Positions 2,528 through 12,404 of a DNA stretch of 25,198 nt are shown here, one piece after another. The notes below the pieces were generated by a model. That model searched no databases. It was given only the letters and a program-made list of their open reading frames with translations, and was not told where the DNA came from. The stretch comes from a virus. The stretch lies in IMG/VR virus record IMGVR_UViG_3300024348_002021, positions 1-25,198 of that record. One strand, given 5' to 3'. Made by a program: the position numbers and the translations under genes. Positions within the stretch are counted from its first letter, which is position 1. The number at the start of each line of letters is the position of its first letter.

Positions 2528-3385
2528 ATGAATAAATTATTAAGAACCGCTATTGTGGGGACTGCATTGCTAACAGTCCCATACATCGCATTCGCGGATG
2601 AAACGGCAACAGAAACGACAACAGAAACGACAAACAGTGTTTCTGTTACTGGCACATATGAAGGTACGGCTTCTGTAGATTCAACTACAAAAGATTTAAC
2701 GTACACTCAAGGTCTAGACCTTGTTATGGTTGGAACTTCTCCACATGGTAGTGTTACAGTAAACATCGATGAAACTGCTACTGTTGGTGATTTATATCTA
2801 GATACTAATCTCTTTAATTTTGATGTACGCCTTGGTAAGGTTGACAGCGTAACAGGAATTAAAGTAAGTACATCTATTGCAGGTTTCACAGTATCAGTGC
2901 ATAAAGCAACTGGTAGTGGTGGAGCAACTACAGTAGATGCAAGTACAGTATTTGGACCACTTACTGTTTCTGGCGAAGACATCTTAGATGATAGTCGTCT
3001 ATTAAGTGCGGGAATGGGAATTGCTGGTATTGACTTAAATGGTTCATATCAAAACACAACAACAGGAACAAATACTATTGTTGACGCTGGTTTAGGAATA
3101 CAAGGTATCTCAGTCGATGTTGCTCACGCTTCAATCGGTGATGCTAGTGTTACTAAAACTGGAACAAGCAAACATGCGTTGTTAGGTACTATGACTAGTG
3201 CTACAAATGGCACAAGTGTTAAAGGTGTAAAGGCATCTATGGGTGACCTTTCTGCTAAACTTGTAAATTTAAATAGCAACAACACTTATACGTTATCATT
3301 AGAACGTGGAATCATGACTTACTCATATGAGAAAGTTTCTGGTGGCGCTTCTACGGTTTCAGCAGGTGTAAAAGTTACGTTTTAG
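2528..3385 (+). CDS. Secreted outer-membrane beta-barrel (porin-like) protein
   Basis: A 285-residue protein with a classical signal peptide: Met-Asn-Lys-Leu-Leu-Arg, a hydrophobic core to about residue 20, and a probable cut after AFA at residue 23. The mature part is rich in Thr, Ser, Gly and Val, has alternating hydrophobic residues typical of beta strands, no cysteine, and ends in V-K-V-T-F; a terminal Phe is the usual signal for insertion by the BAM machinery. A barrel of roughly 12-16 strands is plausible from the length. The gene is a self-contained unit with a strong promoter, a leader hairpin, an AAAAGGAGA ribosome site and a strong terminator. It could be a small porin improving nutrient uptake by the infected cell, or a protein that masks receptors against superinfection. 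The family is uncertain; export and a barrel fold are the better-supported parts. Confidence 0.7.
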   Translation: MNKLLRTAIVGTALLTVPYIAFADETATETTTETTNSVSVTGTYEGTASVDSTTKDLTYTQGLDLVMVGTSPHGSVTVNIDETATVGDLYLDTNLFNFDVRLGKVDSVTGIKVSTSIAGFTVSVHKATGSGGATTVDASTVFGPLTVSGEDILDDSRLLSAGMGIAGIDLNGSYQNTTTGTNTIVDAGLGIQGISVDVAHASIGDASVTKTGTSKHALLGTMTSATNGTSVKGVKASMGDLSAKLVNLNSNNTYTLSLERGIMTYSYEKVSGGASTVSAGVKVTF

Positions 3386-3403
3386 ATTTTATCTCATAAC
3401 TTG

Positions 3404-3432
3404 AAAAAGCCCGTCAATGACGGGCTTTTTTT
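3404..3432 (+). terminator. Rho-independent terminator
   Basis: GCCCGTC and GACGGGC (3409-3415, 3419-3425) pair around AAT; the stem is extended by AAAAA/TTTTT and followed by seven T. It isolates the barrel-protein gene from the envelope operon that follows. Confidence 0.93.
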
Positions 3433-3458: not shown

Positions 3459-3466
3459 GATAAATA
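3459..3466 (+). promoter_or_regulatory. T4-type late promoter box GATAAATA
   Basis: GATAAATA lies 42 bases before the ATG at 3509, directly after the strong terminator at 3404-3432. It is therefore the only visible promoter candidate for the envelope operon 3509-6568. Confidence 0.55.
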
Positions 3467-3508
3467 GATTATGAATGATATCATAATACAAAGTGGGAGA
3501 GTAACACT

Positions 3509-3949
3509 ATGACAAAAACATTTCTACAATGGTGGTTATTTTTTGTGCTACAATTAATAATCTTAGGGGCTTCATACATATACGAATTACATTTGTATAT
3601 TCTTAACAACGACCAAACTTATATTTCTTTTATACTAATAGGTATTTGGTTACTTACAAGTATGCGAATTGGATATAAATTAGTAAAAAATATATCAACA
3701 TCAAACGAAAAATTCTGGTTTATTGCTGAAACTTGTATGGCAATAGGTATGATGGGAACTGTTTTAGGTTTCATTCTCATGCTCGGAAGCAGTGACTTAG
3801 GAAGTATAGATCCATCAGATGTAGAAGGTATGAAAAACGTAATAGGACATCTGGCGAAAGGAATGGCAACTGCTCTATTAACTACTCTTACCGGTCTAAT
3901 AGTATCCGTTTCTTTAAGAACTCAATTAATGATTGGAGAGGGTGAGTAA
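3509..3949 (+). CDS. MotA/TolQ/ExbB-like proton channel protein
   Basis: A 146-residue protein with four predicted membrane helices (about 7-27, 40-58, 74-93, 118-135). The last two carry the MotA/TolQ/ExbB signature: GMMGTVLGFI at 80-89 and GMATALLTTLTGLIVS at 118-133, matching the G-x-x-G-T-V-x-G and A-L-x-T-T-x-x-G-L patterns. Family members form a pentameric inner-membrane channel that couples the proton gradient to work in the periplasm through an ExbD/TolR/MotB partner. It is shorter than ExbB (about 240 residues) and lacks the large cytoplasmic loop. The next gene starts immediately after its stop codon and has the expected partner architecture. It is the first gene of a five-gene operon behind a late-type box. 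The family call is fairly secure; the cellular task is unknown. Confidence 0.78.
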   Translation: MTKTFLQWWLFFVLQLIILGASYIYELHLYILNNDQTYISFILIGIWLLTSMRIGYKLVKNISTSNEKFWFIAETCMAIGMMGTVLGFILMLGSSDLGSIDPSDVEGMKNVIGHLAKGMATALLTTLTGLIVSVSLRTQLMIGEGE

Positions 3950-4708
3950 ATGTCTGTAAATCGATACGGTTCAAACCTGTCGTTCAATGATGTATTGTTC
4001 AATGCACTATTAGGGTTTGTAGTATTATTCGTATTAGCACTTCTGTTAATCAATCCAATAACAAAAAAATCTGATATTCCAGCGAAAGCAGAGATAATGA
4101 TTATCGTAGAATGGGACGATGAATCTCCTGACGATATAGATACGTGGGTAAAAGGTCCCCTTATGGGCGCACCAATTAGTTTTCAAAATAAACATAGTGG
4201 AATGATGCACTTAGACAGAGATGACTTAGGTAGAACATCAGATACTATGATTATTGATGGCAAAAAAATAGTTATAAAAGTAAATCGTGAAGTTGTAACT
4301 ATGCGTGGTATAGTAAAAGGTGATTACTACATCAATATACACGTATATAACAAACCAAAGGGAAGTGAACCGACTAAATATACAGTGACACTGATGGATG
4401 TTAATCCATATAAAGAAGTTTACGTTATACAAGGTGAAGTTACGAGTCGTGGCGATATTGTTCGACTTCCTGGTTTCACATTAGATGAAGAAGGTGAAGT
4501 AACGGATATATGGACAAGTGATAAAATAATAGTAGGCACAAGAGACCAAGCATCAGTCATTGATGGTGCTGGTGGTTATCAAGCCTATGATGAAGCAATA
4601 CGTACCTCAGCAGAGGCCGCACTGGCCCAAGACGATGATATGCATAGTTCAATGGATGATGCTGAAGCAGATGCGGCAGTACGCCTAGCGACTGGTGATG
4701 AAGAATAA
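3950..4708 (+). CDS. ExbD/TolR-like anchor with periplasmic YfaP/DUF2135-like domain
   Basis: A 252-residue protein with one membrane helix at about 16-36. Its start (SFNDVLFNALLGFVVLF) recalls the ExbD/TolR/MotB helix, in which a conserved Asp before V-L carries protons; here that residue is Asp14. The periplasmic part begins near residue 40 and contains D62-I-D64-T-W66-V-K-G-P, followed by H-L-D-R-D-D-L-G, a pattern like the DxDxW-V-x-x-P-x-G beta-sandwich domains (YfaP/DUF2135 type). The last 50 residues are acidic and Ala-rich. Position and topology pair it with the upstream channel gene, to which it is directly abutted. The combination of an ExbD-type helix with this domain, rather than the usual TolR/ExbD fold, is unusual. 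It suggests force or signal transmission to an unknown periplasmic partner. The domain name is moderately certain. Confidence 0.62.
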   Translation: MSVNRYGSNLSFNDVLFNALLGFVVLFVLALLLINPITKKSDIPAKAEIMIIVEWDDESPDDIDTWVKGPLMGAPISFQNKHSGMMHLDRDDLGRTSDTMIIDGKKIVIKVNREVVTMRGIVKGDYYINIHVYNKPKGSEPTKYTVTLMDVNPYKEVYVIQGEVTSRGDIVRLPGFTLDEEGEVTDIWTSDKIIVGTRDQASVIDGAGGYQAYDEAIRTSAEAALAQDDDMHSSMDDAEADAAVRLATGDEE

Positions 4709-4727
4709 ATTAATAACGGAGAAGTAA

Positions 4728-5417
4728 ATGCTTATAAATGGTGTGACAATTGATATGATGATTCAATTTTATATAGTTGGATTATTCACTCTTATATTAG
4801 TATGCTTGTACGCATTGATACAAAGTAAAGCGAATAAACTTTATACTTTTACGATAATACCATTAGCATTGATTATAGCAAGTATGACTTGGCAAGGTAT
4901 CAAAATGTTACAAGGTATGCCAGTATATGGATTACCAATGCAACAACAGGTTCAAGTAATGTTTGTACACGATAGTAAACCTTGGATATATGTATTATTG
5001 AATTCAGAGAATGGTCCAAAATTTTATAAAATAGATTGGACAGAAGAAAATAAAAAGAAAATGAAAGACTTACAGAAGAAAATAGGTTCAAGTGATGGTG
5101 ATGGAGAATTTAAAGAAGGTAATCCAGGAGAATCAGATTCATTCTTCTTTACTCCAATGATGAATATGGGAGAGTTTCAAGGAAAAGAACCAGAAGAATC
5201 GAGAAATTCAGGAGTAACATTTGAAAATAATGTTATAACTGGAAGCGGACCAGGCAATACAACAAATCCAGATAGACCTAGTTTGGAACACGAACATGAA
5301 TCTGAAGAAGACGGAATTATAAGAGGCGATAGTATCACTATCCCATGGTCTACCCTATTTTCAGTTCCAGAACATAAAGAAACATTTATTGGTCCATTAA
5401 ATGAGGGAGAAGAATAA
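4728..5417 (+). CDS. Unknown envelope protein with two membrane helices
   Basis: A 229-residue protein not recognised as any family. Two hydrophobic helices lie at about residues 8-28 and 37-55, so the carboxy 170 residues should be on the same side as the amino end. That soluble part begins with a short hydrophobic, beta-prone stretch (VQVMFVHDSKPWIYVLL), then a lysine-rich helix near 100-117, and continues as a Gly/Glu/Ser-rich, probably disordered region with F-F-F-T-P, ending in an acidic tail. A GGAGAAG ribosome site precedes the ATG. The stop overlaps the next start by one base (TAATG). Membership of the ExbB/ExbD-like operon suggests it is a third membrane component of the same assembly; that is inference. 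Confidence 0.6.
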   Translation: MLINGVTIDMMIQFYIVGLFTLILVCLYALIQSKANKLYTFTIIPLALIIASMTWQGIKMLQGMPVYGLPMQQQVQVMFVHDSKPWIYVLLNSENGPKFYKIDWTEENKKKMKDLQKKIGSSDGDGEFKEGNPGESDSFFFTPMMNMGEFQGKEPEESRNSGVTFENNVITGSGPGNTTNPDRPSLEHEHESEEDGIIRGDSITIPWSTLFSVPEHKETFIGPLNEGEE

Positions 5418-5710
5418 TGTTATCAGAAAGTGTAGGAGCAGTTTTAATGATAGGACATTTTATTGTGTCAATTTTTAATGTACAACTTGGTGCACCAGTT
5501 ATCTATACAATGCCATTTGAAACTATGGAGCAATGTCAATTCTATGGCGAACAATTGCCAAAAGACATGCAGATAGATATTGAGTGGAAGCATAGTACAA
5601 GATATCAATGTTACACACTTGCACAATTTCAAGAAATGCAACGACAACAGATTGCGGCACAACAAGGTACTGCACCTGAACCACAAGATTCAGAGGAACC
5701 AGGAGTATAA
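5417..5710 (+). CDS. Unknown small exported or anchored protein with a Cys pair
   Basis: A 97-residue protein. A hydrophobic stretch at about residues 6-28 could be an uncleaved anchor or signal peptide; the rest includes Cys39 and Cys65, which could form a disulphide if it lies in the periplasm, and a Gln/Pro/Glu-rich tail. The segment F-E-T-M-E-Q-C-Q-F-Y-G between the hydrophobic start and the second cysteine resembles small phage proteins of the type with a single disulphide-bonded helix pair, but no family can be named. It is translationally coupled to the upstream gene (TAATG) and only six bases from the protease-like gene that follows, so it is part of the same five-gene operon. Confidence 0.58.
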   Translation: MLSESVGAVLMIGHFIVSIFNVQLGAPVIYTMPFETMEQCQFYGEQLPKDMQIDIEWKHSTRYQCYTLAQFQEMQRQQIAAQQGTAPEPQDSEEPGV

Positions 5711-5716
5711 TATCTA

Positions 5717-6568
5717 ATGAAAAAAATATTCAGTTTTATAAAAGAATTATTACTAATAAGATTATTAATTAAACTTATAAAAAATCCTATGTTATTAGTG
5801 ATAGTTGTTTTGCTTGTTTTTCTAAGTAAAGACCAAGCAGTCGAATGGTATGATGAATACATGGTACTATATGAAGAAGCAAATAACAAAATAGAAGAAG
5901 ACGAAAACTCTGGAGGATTAACTTTTACGAAGATTGACGAAAACTTATATACCTTAACAGGTACAGTAAAAGAAGGTGATTGTGAAAAAATCGCACCCCA
6001 AATGCCAGATGCATTTGCTTTAATTTTAGAGAGCCCTGGTGGAAATCTAGCAGAAGGATCATGTCTTGCGGCTCATATAAAACTTCGTAGCGTAGTTACA
6101 GTCGTTAGGTCTGATGAGGTAATGAATGAATTTGGTGAAATTGTTTACATTCCCGGCTCATATATGGACGAGGAAGATACCGCCGATTATATGAAAGATA
6201 AGGCAATATGTGCATCAGCATGTGGATTAATGTTCTTAGGTGGTGATAAACGATATTTAATAGGAGATGTATACTTTGGAATACATGGACCTGGCACTCC
6301 ACCAGGTAGTATGAATGGCGCAAGTCCAGGGGCTATTGAGTCTTCAGCGTTTAGAAGTGCATCGTCATTAATGAAATTACTTAAATCTCTAGGAGTTGCA
6401 GACGAAGATTTAAGATTATTATTCATTCAAATTCCAAACGCATCGATGTATTGGCTACATCCTAGAGACTTCGAAATAAAACCAGCATTGACATCAATTG
6501 CTACTAATTATGTAAATTTCTTTGGTTTCACAGGAAGCGATTTAGAAGGTGGTATTCGCCAAAGATAA
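5717..6568 (+). CDS. Membrane-anchored ClpP/SppA-fold protease-like protein (COG3904 type)
   Basis: A 283-residue protein with a basic amino end, one membrane helix at about 24-40, and a soluble domain that should face the periplasm. The domain has the hallmarks of the ClpP/crotonase fold as seen in predicted periplasmic COG3904 proteins: E105-S-P-G-G109 with E-G-S-x-L-A-A-H-I following, the probable nucleophile Ser167 in C-A-S-A-C-G-L-M-F-L-G-G (165-176), and His190 in G-I-H-G-P. In ClpP/SppA-like enzymes the Ser lies after the oxyanion glycines and works with His or Lys. Cys165 and Cys169 flank the serine, as in family members. It is the last gene of the operon with the ExbB/ExbD-like pair, suggesting a protease that processes or is activated by that machine. 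Proteolytic activity is inferred, not shown. Confidence 0.72.
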   Translation: MKKIFSFIKELLLIRLLIKLIKNPMLLVIVVLLVFLSKDQAVEWYDEYMVLYEEANNKIEEDENSGGLTFTKIDENLYTLTGTVKEGDCEKIAPQMPDAFALILESPGGNLAEGSCLAAHIKLRSVVTVVRSDEVMNEFGEIVYIPGSYMDEEDTADYMKDKAICASACGLMFLGGDKRYLIGDVYFGIHGPGTPPGSMNGASPGAIESSAFRSASSLMKLLKSLGVADEDLRLLFIQIPNASMYWLHPRDFEIKPALTSIATNYVNFFGFTGSDLEGGIRQR

Positions 6569-6652: not shown

Positions 6653-7687
6653 ATGTTAAAATCATTTTTTCTCACAAAAGAATATGGTGTATATGCGTGG
6701 CTAATGCTTTCCTTTCTACTAGGAATAATTTGGTACAACGTAGAAATACTAGTATTCTACAACAGTTGGAACAAAGAAATATATGATGTAATTCAATCAC
6801 TACAAGAAGATAGATTCTGGGAGTTATTTCTGGGATGGGACGCTGGTAGATTTTTGAATTTCATGGCTTTAACTGAGGGAGTTCAACCCTCATTCTTAGA
6901 GATTATTGTACTTTATATTCCCATAGCAGTATATTCCACATGGCAAACCCAACGATATTGTTTTAAATGGCGAGAAGCCAATACTAAACACTATATGTCT
7001 AGGTGGGAACACTCACCAGCAAAAATTGAAGGTGGCTCACAGCGTATACAAGAAGACTTAATGATATTTGGTAAGACTCTGCAAGGTTTATTTACTGGAT
7101 TCTTTAGTGCGATACTTATATTATTTGCGTTTCTTCCTATCTTGTGGAATTTATCAGAGAGTTTACCCGTCTGGAATGGTCAAATTATTCCTGGATTCTT
7201 AGTATGGGTTGCTTTAACTGTATCAATTGGTGGTACTTTAATATCACTTATACTGGGTTGGAAACTACCTAAACTTGAATATAATAATCAGGTAGTAGAA
7301 GCAAAAATGAGAAAACAATTAGTATTCTCTGAAGATGATTTTAATGCAAGAGCAACAGCAGTCTTATTTCCTATGTTCTATTCTGTACGTAGAAACTACT
7401 ATAGACTATTCAACTGGTATATGGGATTTGGTGTATGGCAAACAGCATTTGGATTATGTGTAGGTAACTTAGCACTAGTTGTTCTAGCACCAGCATACTT
7501 CGACCAATTAATCACACTTGGAGTATTATTCCAAGTACTCAACGCATTCGGACGAGTAGAAAGTTCAATGGGCTACTTTATAGACCGTTGGACAACGATT
7601 GTTGATTTCTTATCAGTCATTAGACGTATTCGAGAATTCAATAAGGCACTCGATGATGCTAAAGATGTAACATTTGATAATCCATAA
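6653..7687 (+). CDS. SbmA/BacA-family peptide transporter
   Basis: A 344-residue multi-helix membrane protein that aligns by eye over most of its length with E. coli SbmA (406 residues). The start (M-L-K-S-F-F) and the segments W-R-E-A-N-T-K-H-Y-M-x-x-W, I-E-G-G-S-Q-R-I-Q-E-D, K-L-P-x-L-E-Y-x-N-Q-x-V-E-A, S-E-D-D and S-V-R-R-N-Y-Y-R-L-F all match family-conserved stretches, as does I-T-L-G-V-L-F-Q-V-x-N-A-F-G-x-V near the end. SbmA/BacA proteins are homodimeric inner-membrane importers driven by the proton gradient that take up antimicrobial peptides, bleomycin-type drugs and short peptides. There is no ATP-binding domain, as expected. It is shorter at the amino end, lacking part of the first helical region. 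An AGAGGTGA ribosome site fixes the ATG. It follows the envelope operon by 84 bases and may or may not be cotranscribed. Confidence 0.9.
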   Translation: MLKSFFLTKEYGVYAWLMLSFLLGIIWYNVEILVFYNSWNKEIYDVIQSLQEDRFWELFLGWDAGRFLNFMALTEGVQPSFLEIIVLYIPIAVYSTWQTQRYCFKWREANTKHYMSRWEHSPAKIEGGSQRIQEDLMIFGKTLQGLFTGFFSAILILFAFLPILWNLSESLPVWNGQIIPGFLVWVALTVSIGGTLISLILGWKLPKLEYNNQVVEAKMRKQLVFSEDDFNARATAVLFPMFYSVRRNYYRLFNWYMGFGVWQTAFGLCVGNLALVVLAPAYFDQLITLGVLFQVLNAFGRVESSMGYFIDRWTTIVDFLSVIRRIREFNKALDDAKDVTFDNP

Positions 7688-8093: not shown

Positions 8094-11000
8094 ATGAATT
8101 TATCAGAAATACTAGAAGATGAAACAAAGGGCTTGGTTATTATATATCCAGGACGTTTTCACCCATTCCATATTGGTCATGGCAAAGTATACAAATATTT
8201 AAAGCAAAAATATCCTAACGCACAAGTGTTTATTTCTACTTCTGGTAAAGTCGATGGCGACAGGTCACCTTTTACTTTTGAAGAAAAGAAAAAGATGATG
8301 ATACTGGCTGGTGTTGATTCTGGTGCTATTGTTCAGTGTAAATCTCCATATCAATCTATAGAGATTGTGCAACGATTTGATGAAGATAAGACAGTTGTTG
8401 TCTTTGCTGTATCTGAAAAAGATATGGCAGAAGAACCTAGATTTGATTTCTCTGGCGGTATCAAATTGAAGAAAAATGGTGAGCCAGCATATATGCAGAA
8501 ATGGACTGGTTTAGATTCTGCTGAAACTTATAGAAAACACGGTTACTTAGCAACAACACCTACATTTCCATTTGAAGTATTAGGACAAGAAATAAACAGT
8601 GCGTCACAAATTAGAAATATGATTACGGCGAGTGACGATACTAAACTTAGTCAAATTTTACAAGACTTATATAACATCACTGATGTTCCAAATGATATAA
8701 TCGAAATATTTAAGAGAAAGATTGGAAACAAAGAAACAATGAATGAAAACTGGAGTGAATATTCACTTTCTGAGTTTTTAATTGAAATCGAACACGAGGA
8801 AAAGACAATGAAAAACGGCATACTACAAACAATAACAGAAGGATATGGACCAATGACTTGGGACAGAATGAAAAGTATTGCGGCAGACATGAAAGATTAT
8901 GTTGATGACCACAAAGAACACTTTGACGCTTATCCTCAAGATGTAGAAATAGATGATAAAATCTATGATTGGGACGAATACTGGGGAATATTAGATAAAG
9001 TTTATCCAGATGCTTATGATAATCAGTATGCAAATGAATCTATTGATGAAGAATTTGATAGAAAAGTAAAAGAAATTGTTGAAGCAAAATTTAGTATTAA
9101 AGAAGAATCTGGTCAAGAAGATTTAGACTGGAGTCTCTTTATTGATTACGTAGGGAATTTTTATGGAACTAATGGAATATATGCTGATTTCTTCAAAAAT
9201 GACGATGGTTCTGAAGGCGTTAGTAAAAAAGAAATCGTAAAGACAGTAAAAGCCCTACTCAAAGACGAAACTTGGGAATGGGGATCAGGTGACACAATGG
9301 ACAGAGAAAAAGTTAGAGATATGATGCTTACCGCGAGGGAAGATGATAAAAACTTTGAGTCAATTAAAGAAGGTGATTATGCCAACGAACAACATGAGCA
9401 ACTAGAATACATTCATCACGTGTTACAAGAATGTGGTGATGGAAATGTAGACAACGCAATGGTTGACCAAGCAATCGCATTTGTTGAAGATATTAGAGAA
9501 CAACATTTTAATACTGACGGTTCTACAAAATCAGAGAGTCGAGTACGAGAATCTCAAGGTTATCAAGACCTAGGTAACATTGAGGGCTACTTAGATACGA
9601 TTGATGAGTATGTGGAAAAGTTATTCATAAAAGATGCAGGTCATGCCCAACCTGGTTCAACATCAATAAAAGAGATAGCATACAGAATTCAAAATGCTGT
9701 TGATGATATTAGAACTAGAGAACTTGAATTAAAGCCAAGTTTAATCAGAGCAAAATACAATGAAGAAGACCATAAAGTTGATGAATGGGTTCAAGACCAA
9801 GATGCTGGAAACTGGAGTATGTGGACAGCACAAGAGAGAAGTTTTATACAAGAACTATGTTTACGACACGATGGTATTAAAATGGACCCAGCGGGATTAA
9901 AGTATCTTGGAAAATCTGAATTATGGGATGAAGGCAGTATTCTAAAAGATAAAGGAAAATTGACTACTCTAATGCTTTGGGTTAAGAAAAACAAAGACGA
10001 TATTGAAGGTCGTTTTACAAGAATGTTCAAAGTATACAGTAAAGATAATAACAACGGACAATCAGATGGTAACCAAGTTCTTCAAAACATTATTGGAAAG
10101 ATTGGTAGTGTTAAAGTAGAAGAATCAGAAGAACGTCCTTACATTTGTGTTCATGCCAAAAAAGGCAAATACGAAACTCACGCAACATCATCTTATGATG
10201 CGGCCAAGAATGCGGCGAAGCATTGGGGATTAAAATCAACAGCAGGCATTGATGCACATTTGGCTGACGTAGAACATGTTGCTGAAGAACTTGATGATGA
10301 TGCACTTATACAAATCGTAGAGTCTAACGGAATAGGAGACTTGATTGTGTTAGATGAAGATGGAAAATTAGTTAATAGAAATGAATTACTTGAAATTGCA
10401 CCTGTACTTATCCCTGCGTTAGCCGCTTTAGCCAGAGTCGGCACAGCCGTTTATAAATATGGCAAACCGACCTATAAGGCAGTAGCAAAAAAAGTAGGTA
10501 AATGGGCAGATGATATTGACAATTACTACGCAAGGCCTCAACCTTCCCCAAATATGAGCAAAGCAGAAAGACTGGCGAATTACGGACCGAATACTACGAA
10601 ATTCAGTAAAGAACTAATACAACAACAAAAGCAATTTCAAAAGAATTTACGAAATGGTATTAAAAACGAAGGAGAAGAGGCGATAGATTTAGGATTAGGA
10701 AGACGCCATAAGACAGATGTATTAAAATCACGCATTCCAAGATATTCATATGATGGCATCCCAGTAAATTCCAAAGGAGAGTTAGGATATGATGATGCAG
10801 AAGTATCAAATTGGAAAGACCTATATCCCAACGACTACGATGATAGAATTCAAAGAATAGCAAGAAGAAGAAAAATTAAAGAATGGCTAAAAGAAGATGC
10901 TCAGGCAGAAGAAAAAGTATCTACATTAACAAAAATGCAGACAGTATACAAACATAACGAAGACCGAAACAATCACTCAGAAAACATTCTTATGTTAGCA

Positions 11001-12404
11001 CAAGCATTCGGAGATAGAGGAGAAATAAAAGCAATTGAAGGACTTCTAAAAACAACCAAACAACAAGGATACGTTACTCCAGAACAATCAGAAGTAATGT
11101 ATAATTCAATACATAAAAAATATTACAAAGAATTGTTTCCACTTAATGAACTCTGGCCAGCGTTAGCAGTAGCCGGAGCGGCAGGTTATGGACTTTATAA
11201 AGGTGGTAAAGCAATAGGTAAATGGATGGCAAATAAAACTAAACAAGTTGGTAAGTATGCAAAAGCAACACAAGATGTTGCAAAAACAACAGTTCCAGAG
11301 AGCATAGCAAATGAGATTATGACAAAAGCAACGGAACAGTCTATTGATGAAGACGATAGTTGGAAGTTAGGACCACATGGTACTGCAGGCAAGAGAACGG
11401 CCCAGATGAAGGCACAAGCACAAGACGATAGTTGGAAACTTACAGGAACCGATGCAATGAGAGACTTATGGTATGGTCCAAAAAAACCAAAATCAGTTGC
11501 AAAAGGAACAGGTAAACATGGCCCAGCAAATCGCTATGCAAGAGCCAATACCGGACCCGGCGACAAAACACATTTGAAAAAGAGGGAAATTGAAGAAGGT
11601 CCAGGAGACAAAACACAGTTGAAAAAGCGGGCGGCTAAACAAGCATTAGCAAAACAAACTGCTCGTGATTCAGGAGACTTCCCACATGACTCTCCTGAAT
11701 ATAGAGTTTTAATGCATAAAAGTCAACAGGCAGGCGTTAGAGCCGCAACTGATAATAGAAGTGATAGGAAAGGAGTTGTCGCAACAGCAAAAGCAGTAGC
11801 ACAACAAAATGCAGTTAAGAAAGCAAATAAGCAAAATAAGGCAGCAGACGCAAAGTTAGTATCAACCCCACCATTTACTAAAACAGTAGCAAAAGGTACT
11901 GGCGCAAAGGGACCAGCCGGTGGTGCAACAGCACCAGTCAGCACAGTGGCTAAGCCAGGTAGAGTAAAAATGAAAATTAAGAAGTCAGATTTATTTGGTA
12001 AAGGTTCAAGTAAATCAACTAAGCCATCAGATAATACAATTGATTGGAATCTTGGCTATGATGATGAATTTGGTTCTAAACCAGTTACTGGACGAGAAAA
12101 GATTCTAAAGATTAATAAGAAGAAGACTAATATACCTAGAGATGATATATTTAAAGGTGCAGATTTAGGACATAAAGGAAATTGGGTAGAATCAATACTA
12201 CATTATTCTGATGCTAAAGGAACACCCAAGTATAAAGAAGGTTATAAAGCCGCTAGAAAAGGGGTGAAGTATGATGAAAATCCTTACAGTGGTGCTGAGA
12301 AACTACAATGGTCTAAAGGACATAATGATTTTAGAGCAGATAAATTAAGAGCCGCTGGTGAACCAAATTATGGTGCTAGAGGACAGTTTGAGAATAAAAG
12401 GTAA
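8094..12404 (+). CDS. Giant multidomain protein: NMN adenylyltransferase-like head, repeat-bearing linker, RMF-like tail
   Basis: A 1436-residue protein. Residues about 14-205 form a nucleotidyltransferase domain of the NMNAT/cytidylyltransferase type: GRFHPFHIGH (H23, H26-x-G28-H29) and a carboxy N168-S-A-S-Q-I-R174 resembling the S-x-T/S-x-x-R motif. Such enzymes make NAD from NMN and ATP. The next 500 residues are acidic and helical, then a phage-type module at about 684-730 (VHAKKGKYETHATSSYDAAK). Two Ala/Gly-rich hydrophobic segments follow L-L-E (765-767) and L-N-E (1017-1019). Residues 1080-1320 are basic and repetitive, and 1379-1416 resemble ribosome modulation factor (G1383-Y, N1396-P-Y, W1406-x-x-G). 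The first residues, MNLSEILED, resemble a T4 capsid-targeting peptide. A packaged protein cut inside the head into several peptides would explain the architecture; this is inference. It could alternatively be a virion structural protein. Confidence 0.72.
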   Translation: MNLSEILEDETKGLVIIYPGRFHPFHIGHGKVYKYLKQKYPNAQVFISTSGKVDGDRSPFTFEEKKKMMILAGVDSGAIVQCKSPYQSIEIVQRFDEDKTVVVFAVSEKDMAEEPRFDFSGGIKLKKNGEPAYMQKWTGLDSAETYRKHGYLATTPTFPFEVLGQEINSASQIRNMITASDDTKLSQILQDLYNITDVPNDIIEIFKRKIGNKETMNENWSEYSLSEFLIEIEHEEKTMKNGILQTITEGYGPMTWDRMKSIAADMKDYVDDHKEHFDAYPQDVEIDDKIYDWDEYWGILDKVYPDAYDNQYANESIDEEFDRKVKEIVEAKFSIKEESGQEDLDWSLFIDYVGNFYGTNGIYADFFKNDDGSEGVSKKEIVKTVKALLKDETWEWGSGDTMDREKVRDMMLTAREDDKNFESIKEGDYANEQHEQLEYIHHVLQECGDGNVDNAMVDQAIAFVEDIREQHFNTDGSTKSESRVRESQGYQDLGNIEGYLDTIDEYVEKLFIKDAGHAQPGSTSIKEIAYRIQNAVDDIRTRELELKPSLIRAKYNEEDHKVDEWVQDQDAGNWSMWTAQERSFIQELCLRHDGIKMDPAGLKYLGKSELWDEGSILKDKGKLTTLMLWVKKNKDDIEGRFTRMFKVYSKDNNNGQSDGNQVLQNIIGKIGSVKVEESEERPYICVHAKKGKYETHATSSYDAAKNAAKHWGLKSTAGIDAHLADVEHVAEELDDDALIQIVESNGIGDLIVLDEDGKLVNRNELLEIAPVLIPALAALARVGTAVYKYGKPTYKAVAKKVGKWADDIDNYYARPQPSPNMSKAERLANYGPNTTKFSKELIQQQKQFQKNLRNGIKNEGEEAIDLGLGRRHKTDVLKSRIPRYSYDGIPVNSKGELGYDDAEVSNWKDLYPNDYDDRIQRIARRRKIKEWLKEDAQAEEKVSTLTKMQTVYKHNEDRNNHSENILMLAQAFGDRGEIKAIEGLLKTTKQQGYVTPEQSEVMYNSIHKKYYKELFPLNELWPALAVAGAAGYGLYKGGKAIGKWMANKTKQVGKYAKATQDVAKTTVPESIANEIMTKATEQSIDEDDSWKLGPHGTAGKRTAQMKAQAQDDSWKLTGTDAMRDLWYGPKKPKSVAKGTGKHGPANRYARANTGPGDKTHLKKREIEEGPGDKTQLKKRAAKQALAKQTARDSGDFPHDSPEYRVLMHKSQQAGVRAATDNRSDRKGVVATAKAVAQQNAVKKANKQNKAADAKLVSTPPFTKTVAKGTGAKGPAGGATAPVSTVAKPGRVKMKIKKSDLFGKGSSKSTKPSDNTIDWNLGYDDEFGSKPVTGREKILKINKKKTNIPRDDIFKGADLGHKGNWVESILHYSDAKGTPKYKEGYKAARKGVKYDENPYSGAEKLQWSKGHNDFRADKLRAAGEPNYGARGQFENKR
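11352..11633 (+). repeat. Short in-frame duplications within the giant gene
   Basis: The protein repeats DDSWKL at residues 1087-1092 and 1111-1116 (24 residues apart) and GPGDKTxLKKR at 1154-1164 and 1169-1179 (15 apart). A third pair, AKGTG-x-x-GPA, recurs farther downstream. They mark a low-complexity, strongly basic region that could bind packaged DNA. Confidence 0.6.

Follow-up and report, generated by a model that had tools for sequence, protein, structure and literature searches.

We analyzed a 25,198-base virus record (IMG/VR record IMGVR_UViG_3300024348_002021, positions 1 to 25,198; hereafter the window) in which five genes lie head to tail, abutting or overlapping, behind a late-type promoter box (Table 1). 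The original prediction had described them as a phage-encoded five-gene envelope machine, made up of an ExbB/TolQ/MotA-like proton channel, an ExbD/TolR-like partner with a YfaP/DUF2135-like domain, two further membrane or anchored proteins and a periplasmic ClpP-fold protein. The layout stands as described. However, the conserved unit consists of the first three genes, which we call B, D and T.

The B-D-T cassette

An alignment-based search found relatives of D on at least 267 viral contigs and in 560 or more stretches of bacterial genomes. We sampled neighbourhoods around the 80 best D matches in each of the two sets, mostly on fragmentary contigs, called their genes with our own scripts and ran profiles of B, D and T over them. 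All three genes were found in 78 of 80 phage loci and in 78 of 80 bacterial loci. T adjoins D in 78/80 and 80/80 loci, respectively, and the order B-D-T was scored in 78/78 phage and 73/78 bacterial loci; we take the five exceptions for scoring artefacts, as in these a long stop-to-stop frame in GC-rich DNA starts before its neighbour. The phage genes are translationally coupled, with median gaps of -8 and -1 bases. From this joint occurrence and order we conclude that the cassette comprises three genes; the fourth and the ClpP-like genes are real, but they are clade-specific partners. The phage-encoded character of the system, evident from the viral contigs, also needs qualification: about 4% of Pseudomonadota carry a single chromosomal copy of the same genes, which are therefore not restricted to phages.

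That B is an ExbB/TolQ/MotA-like channel was borne out by a match to the MotA_ExbB family (PF01618) with an E-value of 7e-8 and 32.7 bits against a cut-off of 22.9. Its profile also matches the solved structures of MotA (8gqy, E = 6e-6), ExbB, TolQ and PomA and, weakly, ZorA chains. The pore threonine T126 is invariant in 38/38 sequences. T84 is kept in the phage proteins and in most others, and is a lysine in several Burkholderiales (loci L103, L116, L122 and L136), where it may alter ion coupling. The protein is very short, with little space for a cytoplasmic domain; bacterial B proteins are longer.

The AlphaFold model of D, with a predicted local distance difference test score (pLDDT) of 86, shows a single helix (residues 9-34) followed by a domain of beta strands only (49-188), most of which scores above 90. 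Asp14, Asp62, Asp64, Asp91, Asp92, Glu114, Trp55 and Arg119 are invariant in 73/73 D proteins from phages, a prophage and bacteria. The view of D as an ExbD/TolR-like subunit thus holds for the N-terminal transmembrane helix and for the presence of Asp14, the putative proton carrier, but not for the soluble domain: we obtained no ExbD/TolR match in Pfam or NCBIfam, and none among the structural folds listed. The nearest folds in PDB are those of DUF4425 (3u6g and 4qey; probability 0.94-0.98, E about 0.01-0.03), together with 2lge, which is related to DUF4425 and described as a calcium-bound form. The YfaP/DUF2135-like label fared less well, as the D of the window has no PF09906 match; a sub-threshold one was seen on a bacterial relative (13.3 bits against a cut-off of 22, E = 0.088). 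Both likenesses lie below significance thresholds, and the D domain is distinctive in being fused to a proton-channel transmembrane helix.

Neither Pfam nor NCBIfam gave a match above cut-off for T, which was not recognized as a TonB- or TolA-like transducer. Its alignment shows two hydrophobic segments, and its charge distribution suggests the topology of a two-helix membrane protein with a short, conserved periplasmic part; bacterial T proteins carry a C-terminal LPEK-type motif. Given the family membership of B and the invariant aspartate of D, we consider it likely that B-D-T has a proton-motor architecture. Five B subunits would probably surround two D subunits, with Asp14 as the proton carrier, while the beta-sandwich of D and the T protein would reach into the periplasm. 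Known proton motors with 5:2 stoichiometry power motility, the uptake of nutrients, secretion and phage defence, and keep the outer membrane stable.

Table 1. Position and nature of the cassette genes and adjoining features in the window
Feature	Position	Strand	Basis or remarks
B, 146-amino-acid MotA/TolQ/ExbB-family proton-channel subunit with GT...TT motifs (T84, T126)	3509..3949	+	Pfam PF01618
D, partner of ExbD topology	3950..4708	+	Transmembrane helix 9-34, periplasmic all-beta domain 49-188
T, third subunit of the core, with a G-(W/Y/M)-P motif, a variable tail and two hydrophobic segments at the N-terminus	4728..5417	+	Profile, alignments
Fourth gene, encoding a small protein, anchored or secreted, in which two cysteines (C40, C65) are invariant	5417..5710	+	Clade-specific
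Membrane-anchored ClpP-like protein of serine-protease type	5717..6568	+	Ser167 in C-A-S-A-C, His190
SbmA/BacA-like transporter protein, downstream neighbour	6653..7687	+	Pfam PF05992, E = 2.5e-76, profile positions 2-314 of 315
Putative T4-type late promoter box GATAAATA, operon start	3459..3466	+	ATAAATA at 3460-3466
Strong intrinsic terminator at the boundary between the porin-like gene and B-D-T	3403..3431	+	RNA fold -21.1 kcal/mol, z = -7.54
Porin-like signal-peptide protein, separate upstream transcription unit	2528..3385	+	Own sigma70 promoter; 'porin' by appearance

Partner genes and transcription

An anchored ClpP-like gene occurs in 12 contigs (the window and loci L006-L011, L029, L030, L045, L050 and L061), and in 12/12 it stands in the order B-D-T, fourth gene, ClpP-like gene, SbmA-like gene. 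The five-gene order that the original prediction proposed to look for in marine viral genomes is thus found, among contigs whose D identity drops to about 40%. The fourth gene, kept in 12/12, is always followed by the ClpP-like gene, and since the SbmA-like gene follows in every contig with all five genes, the unit reaches past position 6568. This last gene encodes a full-length SbmA/BacA member, which differs from known ones in that a phage encodes it, in the same orientation as a proton-motor operon.

In the ClpP-like protein, Ser167 and His190 are invariant in 12/12, so that the predicted serine motif is indeed intact. Its ClpP fold is supported by motifs and remote homology but not by structure: the AlphaFold model, based on 12 rows, has a pLDDT of 43, and we therefore do not claim the fold on structural grounds. 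None of the 12 members has a CLP_protease match in Pfam. Genome searches link the family to secreted bacterial proteins with a C-x-S-[AS]-C motif and a following histidine, which we take to be of the COG3904 type, and two of these weakly match CLP_protease (E = 0.004-0.005). With ClpP of family S14 and with such secreted proteins, the window protein shares an SPGG motif, the serine-bearing C-x-S-[AS]-C motif and the following histidine; it differs in being anchored by one transmembrane helix, and no Clp ATPase is expected outside the membrane. In 16 of 48 non-redundant phage loci a soluble ClpP is encoded no more than about 7 kb upstream, and profile-profile comparison relates it only weakly to the anchored family (probability 19%). 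One large clade of marine phages (L079, L085, L097 and others) has this gene, which is distinct from the anchored family, shortly before B-D-T. Other neighbours in the 48 loci include SbmA-like genes downstream (10 loci), IscA (10) and M15 peptidase (3).

A second kind of protease was found in temperate rhizobial phages. When the D of the window was compared with phage records by tblastn, only Rhizobium phages were found; other marine D proteins used as queries reached temperate phages of Sinorhizobium and Rhizobium, including phage 16-3. There, p038 corresponds to B (E = 9e-8), p040 to D (E = 4e-26) and p042 to T (E = 5e-10), and p036, separated from B by one small upstream gene, bears the annotation of a trypsin-like protease of a typically periplasmic kind (Trypsin_2, E = 4e-20). 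Phages NV1.1.1 and RHph_X2_25 have the same order, with a Trypsin_2 protein directly upstream of B, and RHph_N3_19 has a trypsin-like gene downstream. In the records of 16-3 (p036-p042), NV1.1.1 and RHph_X2_25 the genes are annotated as a protease and unnamed proteins; the motor was not recognized and the ClpP-like partner is absent. One of the sampled genomes contains a prophage (L192) that encodes an HtrA-like lipoprotein directly upstream of B. The notion of a periplasmic protease partner is strengthened by these unrelated temperate phages, which pair B-D-T with a secreted trypsin-like protease. With a ClpP-like protein in one clade and trypsin-like proteins in temperate phages, the motor is thus paired with secreted proteins of serine-protease type and unrelated folds.

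Lysis genes lie near the cassette in three of four temperate elements: a lysozyme upstream of B-D-T in X2_25 and, as judged by sequence resemblance, genes in L192 and 16-3. In L192 these are a holin-like and an endolysin-like protein further upstream, the latter having no Pfam match; p029 and p032 of 16-3 resemble these two proteins by eye, and the GH19 match of p029 is sub-threshold. Two side observations concern these genomes. In 16-3, p029 and p030 look like a single endolysin gene that a frame change in the record has divided in two (NC_011103, 19471-20071), and L192:11725-13095 encodes a protein resembling O-antigen ligase (Wzy_C, just under cut-off).

The late-type box anticipated ahead of the operon is kept before B in the 7/7 closest contigs. 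More generally, 23 of 46 non-redundant marine phage loci have ATAAATA in the 110 bases before B, against 57 of 449 other genes (13%), and this motif is the most enriched of all 7-mers upstream of phage B (p = 1.4e-8). It precedes D in 0/48 loci and T in 0/47, and thus marks the first gene only, as in a late operon. The motif suggests that B-D-T would be transcribed with T4-type late timing. The window contains a phage-type DNA polymerase gene; a search for the Gp23 capsid protein gave matches in only 4 of 32 contigs, and we therefore do not call every carrier T4-like.

The porin-like gene, which gave no Pfam family above cut-off, belongs to a separate unit. Its extended sigma70 promoter (2408-2437, 12/12 match) and the terminator hairpin that closes the unit are both kept in 7/7 close contigs, and the gene itself is confined to the closest contigs. 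In six of these seven, the window being the exception, an ATAAATA box lies within the spacer of the sigma70 promoter, which suggests a dual early and late promoter. Other genes of the window encode a RyR-domain protein (942-1412; Pfam E = 2.6e-9), kept in close contigs; a protein resembling HscB by eye only, with no Pfam support (1472-2014), adjoined by an A-type iron-sulfur (Fe-S) assembly protein (2032-2352; Pfam E = 1e-18); and a 1436-amino-acid protein (8094-12404) that begins with a nucleotidyltransferase domain and has a weak RMF-like match at its C-terminus.

Chromosomal relatives and the age of the phage cassette

In a survey of 399 evenly drawn Pseudomonadota genomes, 17 carried D, in single copy. 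A pyrroloquinoline quinone (PQQ) alcohol dehydrogenase is present in 15/15 genomes with a strong chromosomal D, compared with 96/399 overall (Fisher p about 2e-10, kinship ignored); of the two D-positive genomes that lack the enzyme, one has a weak match and the other a prophage. The nearest PQQ alcohol dehydrogenase lies on the same contig within 20 kb in 14 of 25 carriers checked, and 22 of 23 readable nearby enzymes have an Asp-x-Asp motif. In PQQ alcohol dehydrogenases, Asp-x-Asp marks the lanthanide-dependent forms. A PedC-type permease and quinoprotein relay genes recur in the vicinity, and a DUF3108-like lipoprotein gene follows T in 69 of 80 bacterial loci (L103-L182). The chromosomal B-D-T is likely an unrecognized component of the lanthanide-type alcohol dehydrogenase pathway.

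The bacterial version, with its identical gene order, raises the question of whether phages recently captured an ordinary host metabolic cassette as auxiliary genes with unchanged function. We find this improbable. A tree of 83 D proteins shows two changes between phage and bacterial labels, against a mean of 23 after shuffling, which argues for an old phage cassette rather than a recent capture. The relatives of the window are all phage, its D falling within a 16-row all-phage group; L192 is an unsure long-branch row. Furthermore, the DUF3108-like lipoprotein is missing from the phage loci.

A possible late role at the host envelope

Comparison with known systems sets the cassette apart. With ExbBD, TolQR and MotAB it shares the channel matches of B, the N-terminal helix and conserved aspartate of D, and a channel gene followed by an adjacent partner gene. 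It differs in the near absence of a cytoplasmic domain from B, in the periplasmic sandwich of D, which is neither ExbD/TolR- nor OmpA-like, and in T, which is not a TonB or TolA protein. Uncharacterized operons for proton motors with a novel third component or appendage are described among motor-coupled vWA force transducers (PMC12204202) and generic ion transporters (PMC12505986); B-D-T differs in having no vWA or TPR protein. A word search of the two papers gave no DUF2135, and the mentions of phages among the passages listed concern Zorya. A survey of pelagimyophages (PMC7029224) mentions neither Clp, TolQ nor porin. That the original prediction knew of no described phage system of this makeup agrees with our search of the open-access literature for phage ExbB/TolQ operons, which found none.

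Membership in Zorya was considered and rejected, as B is too short for the ZorA tail, D has no ZorB match and PADLOC gave no match on the neighbours; moreover, B-D-T is encoded by phages, whereas Zorya is an anti-phage defence. By analogy with ZorAB, which shares the MotA/ExbB channel domain, B-D-T might still serve superinfection exclusion or counter-defence, and ZorA models are among the best curated-family matches of B. Such a role is very improbable: the NCBIfam matches lie far under the ZorA cut-offs, all matches are confined to the channel domain common to both systems, D, T, the fourth gene and the ClpP-like gene gave no PADLOC match, and late expression would be poor timing.

The promoter, the partners and the lysis neighbours lead us to propose, tentatively, a late envelope role exerted together with secreted proteases. 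The machine would be produced at a late stage of infection, with the membrane still energized, and would act on or with a secreted serine protease, the anchored ClpP-like protein in the clade of the window and a trypsin-like protein in temperate rhizobial phages. The periplasm and outer envelope would be remodelled, most likely by envelope proteins or tethers being cut or loosened before lysis. The M15 peptidase near B in three marine loci is counted in support of this role. A bolder version, which we regard as doubtful, is that B-D-T represents a new class of proton-driven motor that steers or drives periplasmic serine proteases of two unrelated folds at the outer envelope, replacing or preceding spanins at the outer-membrane step of lysis.

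Several observations weigh against such a role. Most marine loci have no recognizable lysis gene or secreted protease beside B-D-T, rhizobial myophages (Pootjesviridae, RHph_I1_18) carry the cassette with no adjoining protease, and no catalytic aspartate was identified in the ClpP-like protein. The chromosomal relatives beside PQQ alcohol dehydrogenase genes point to a housekeeping periplasmic role. Finally, a motor needs the proton gradient that holins destroy, and could thus act only before holin triggering.

A simpler link between proton flow and lysis would be a leak, or lysis timer, in which B-D-T, as a regulated proton channel, would trigger or pace lysis in the manner of a holin by reducing the membrane potential at a fixed moment, with the protease as an accessory. 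The channel family, the late-type promoter and the lysis genes near the cassette in X2_25, L192 and 16-3 would suit it. Yet these phages apparently have holin-like genes already, a strictly conserved periplasmic D domain and a T subunit would be superfluous for a leak, and bacterial chromosomes keep the same genes although a leak would be harmful there, so that we think this explanation improbable as well.

Uptake or salvage is the alternative with most in its favour: a porin and an SbmA-type importer, together with a proton-driven machine and a protease in the periplasm, would bring peptides, metals or cofactors into a starved marine host during infection. The adjoining SbmA and porin-like genes also fit this, and close contigs have the order porin, B-D-T, fourth gene, ClpP-like gene, SbmA. 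The SbmA-like neighbours extend to a distant lineage (L098), and Fe-S genes lie close by. Since chromosomal B-D-T goes together with PQQ alcohol dehydrogenases of lanthanide type, metal handling also stays a rival, and the acidic cluster of D and its DUF4425-like fold, with one template described as calcium-bound, are compatible with metal binding. However, B lies behind a late promoter whereas the porin-like gene, itself confined to the closest contigs, has its own sigma70 promoter and is separated by a terminator; no TonB-like protein or TonB-dependent receptor was seen in the operon, and temperate phages instead hold B-D-T near lysis genes. We consider uptake rather unlikely, and favour late envelope breach over it.

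B-D-T appears to be a distinct branch of proton motors that has a periplasmic domain and a third subunit of its own; it is present on hundreds of phage contigs and in about 4% of Pseudomonadota genomes, and we found no account of it in the open-access literature searched. It suggests that viruses may act on the cell wall and outer membrane of the host in a way not yet described. Since the cassette is present in the classical temperate phage 16-3, its function is open to direct genetic test. A proton-powered protease machine, if true, would be a new answer to the question of how the outer membrane is breached by many marine and rhizobial phages, and the chromosomal B-D-T offers a testable lead to a component of lanthanide-type alcohol oxidation.

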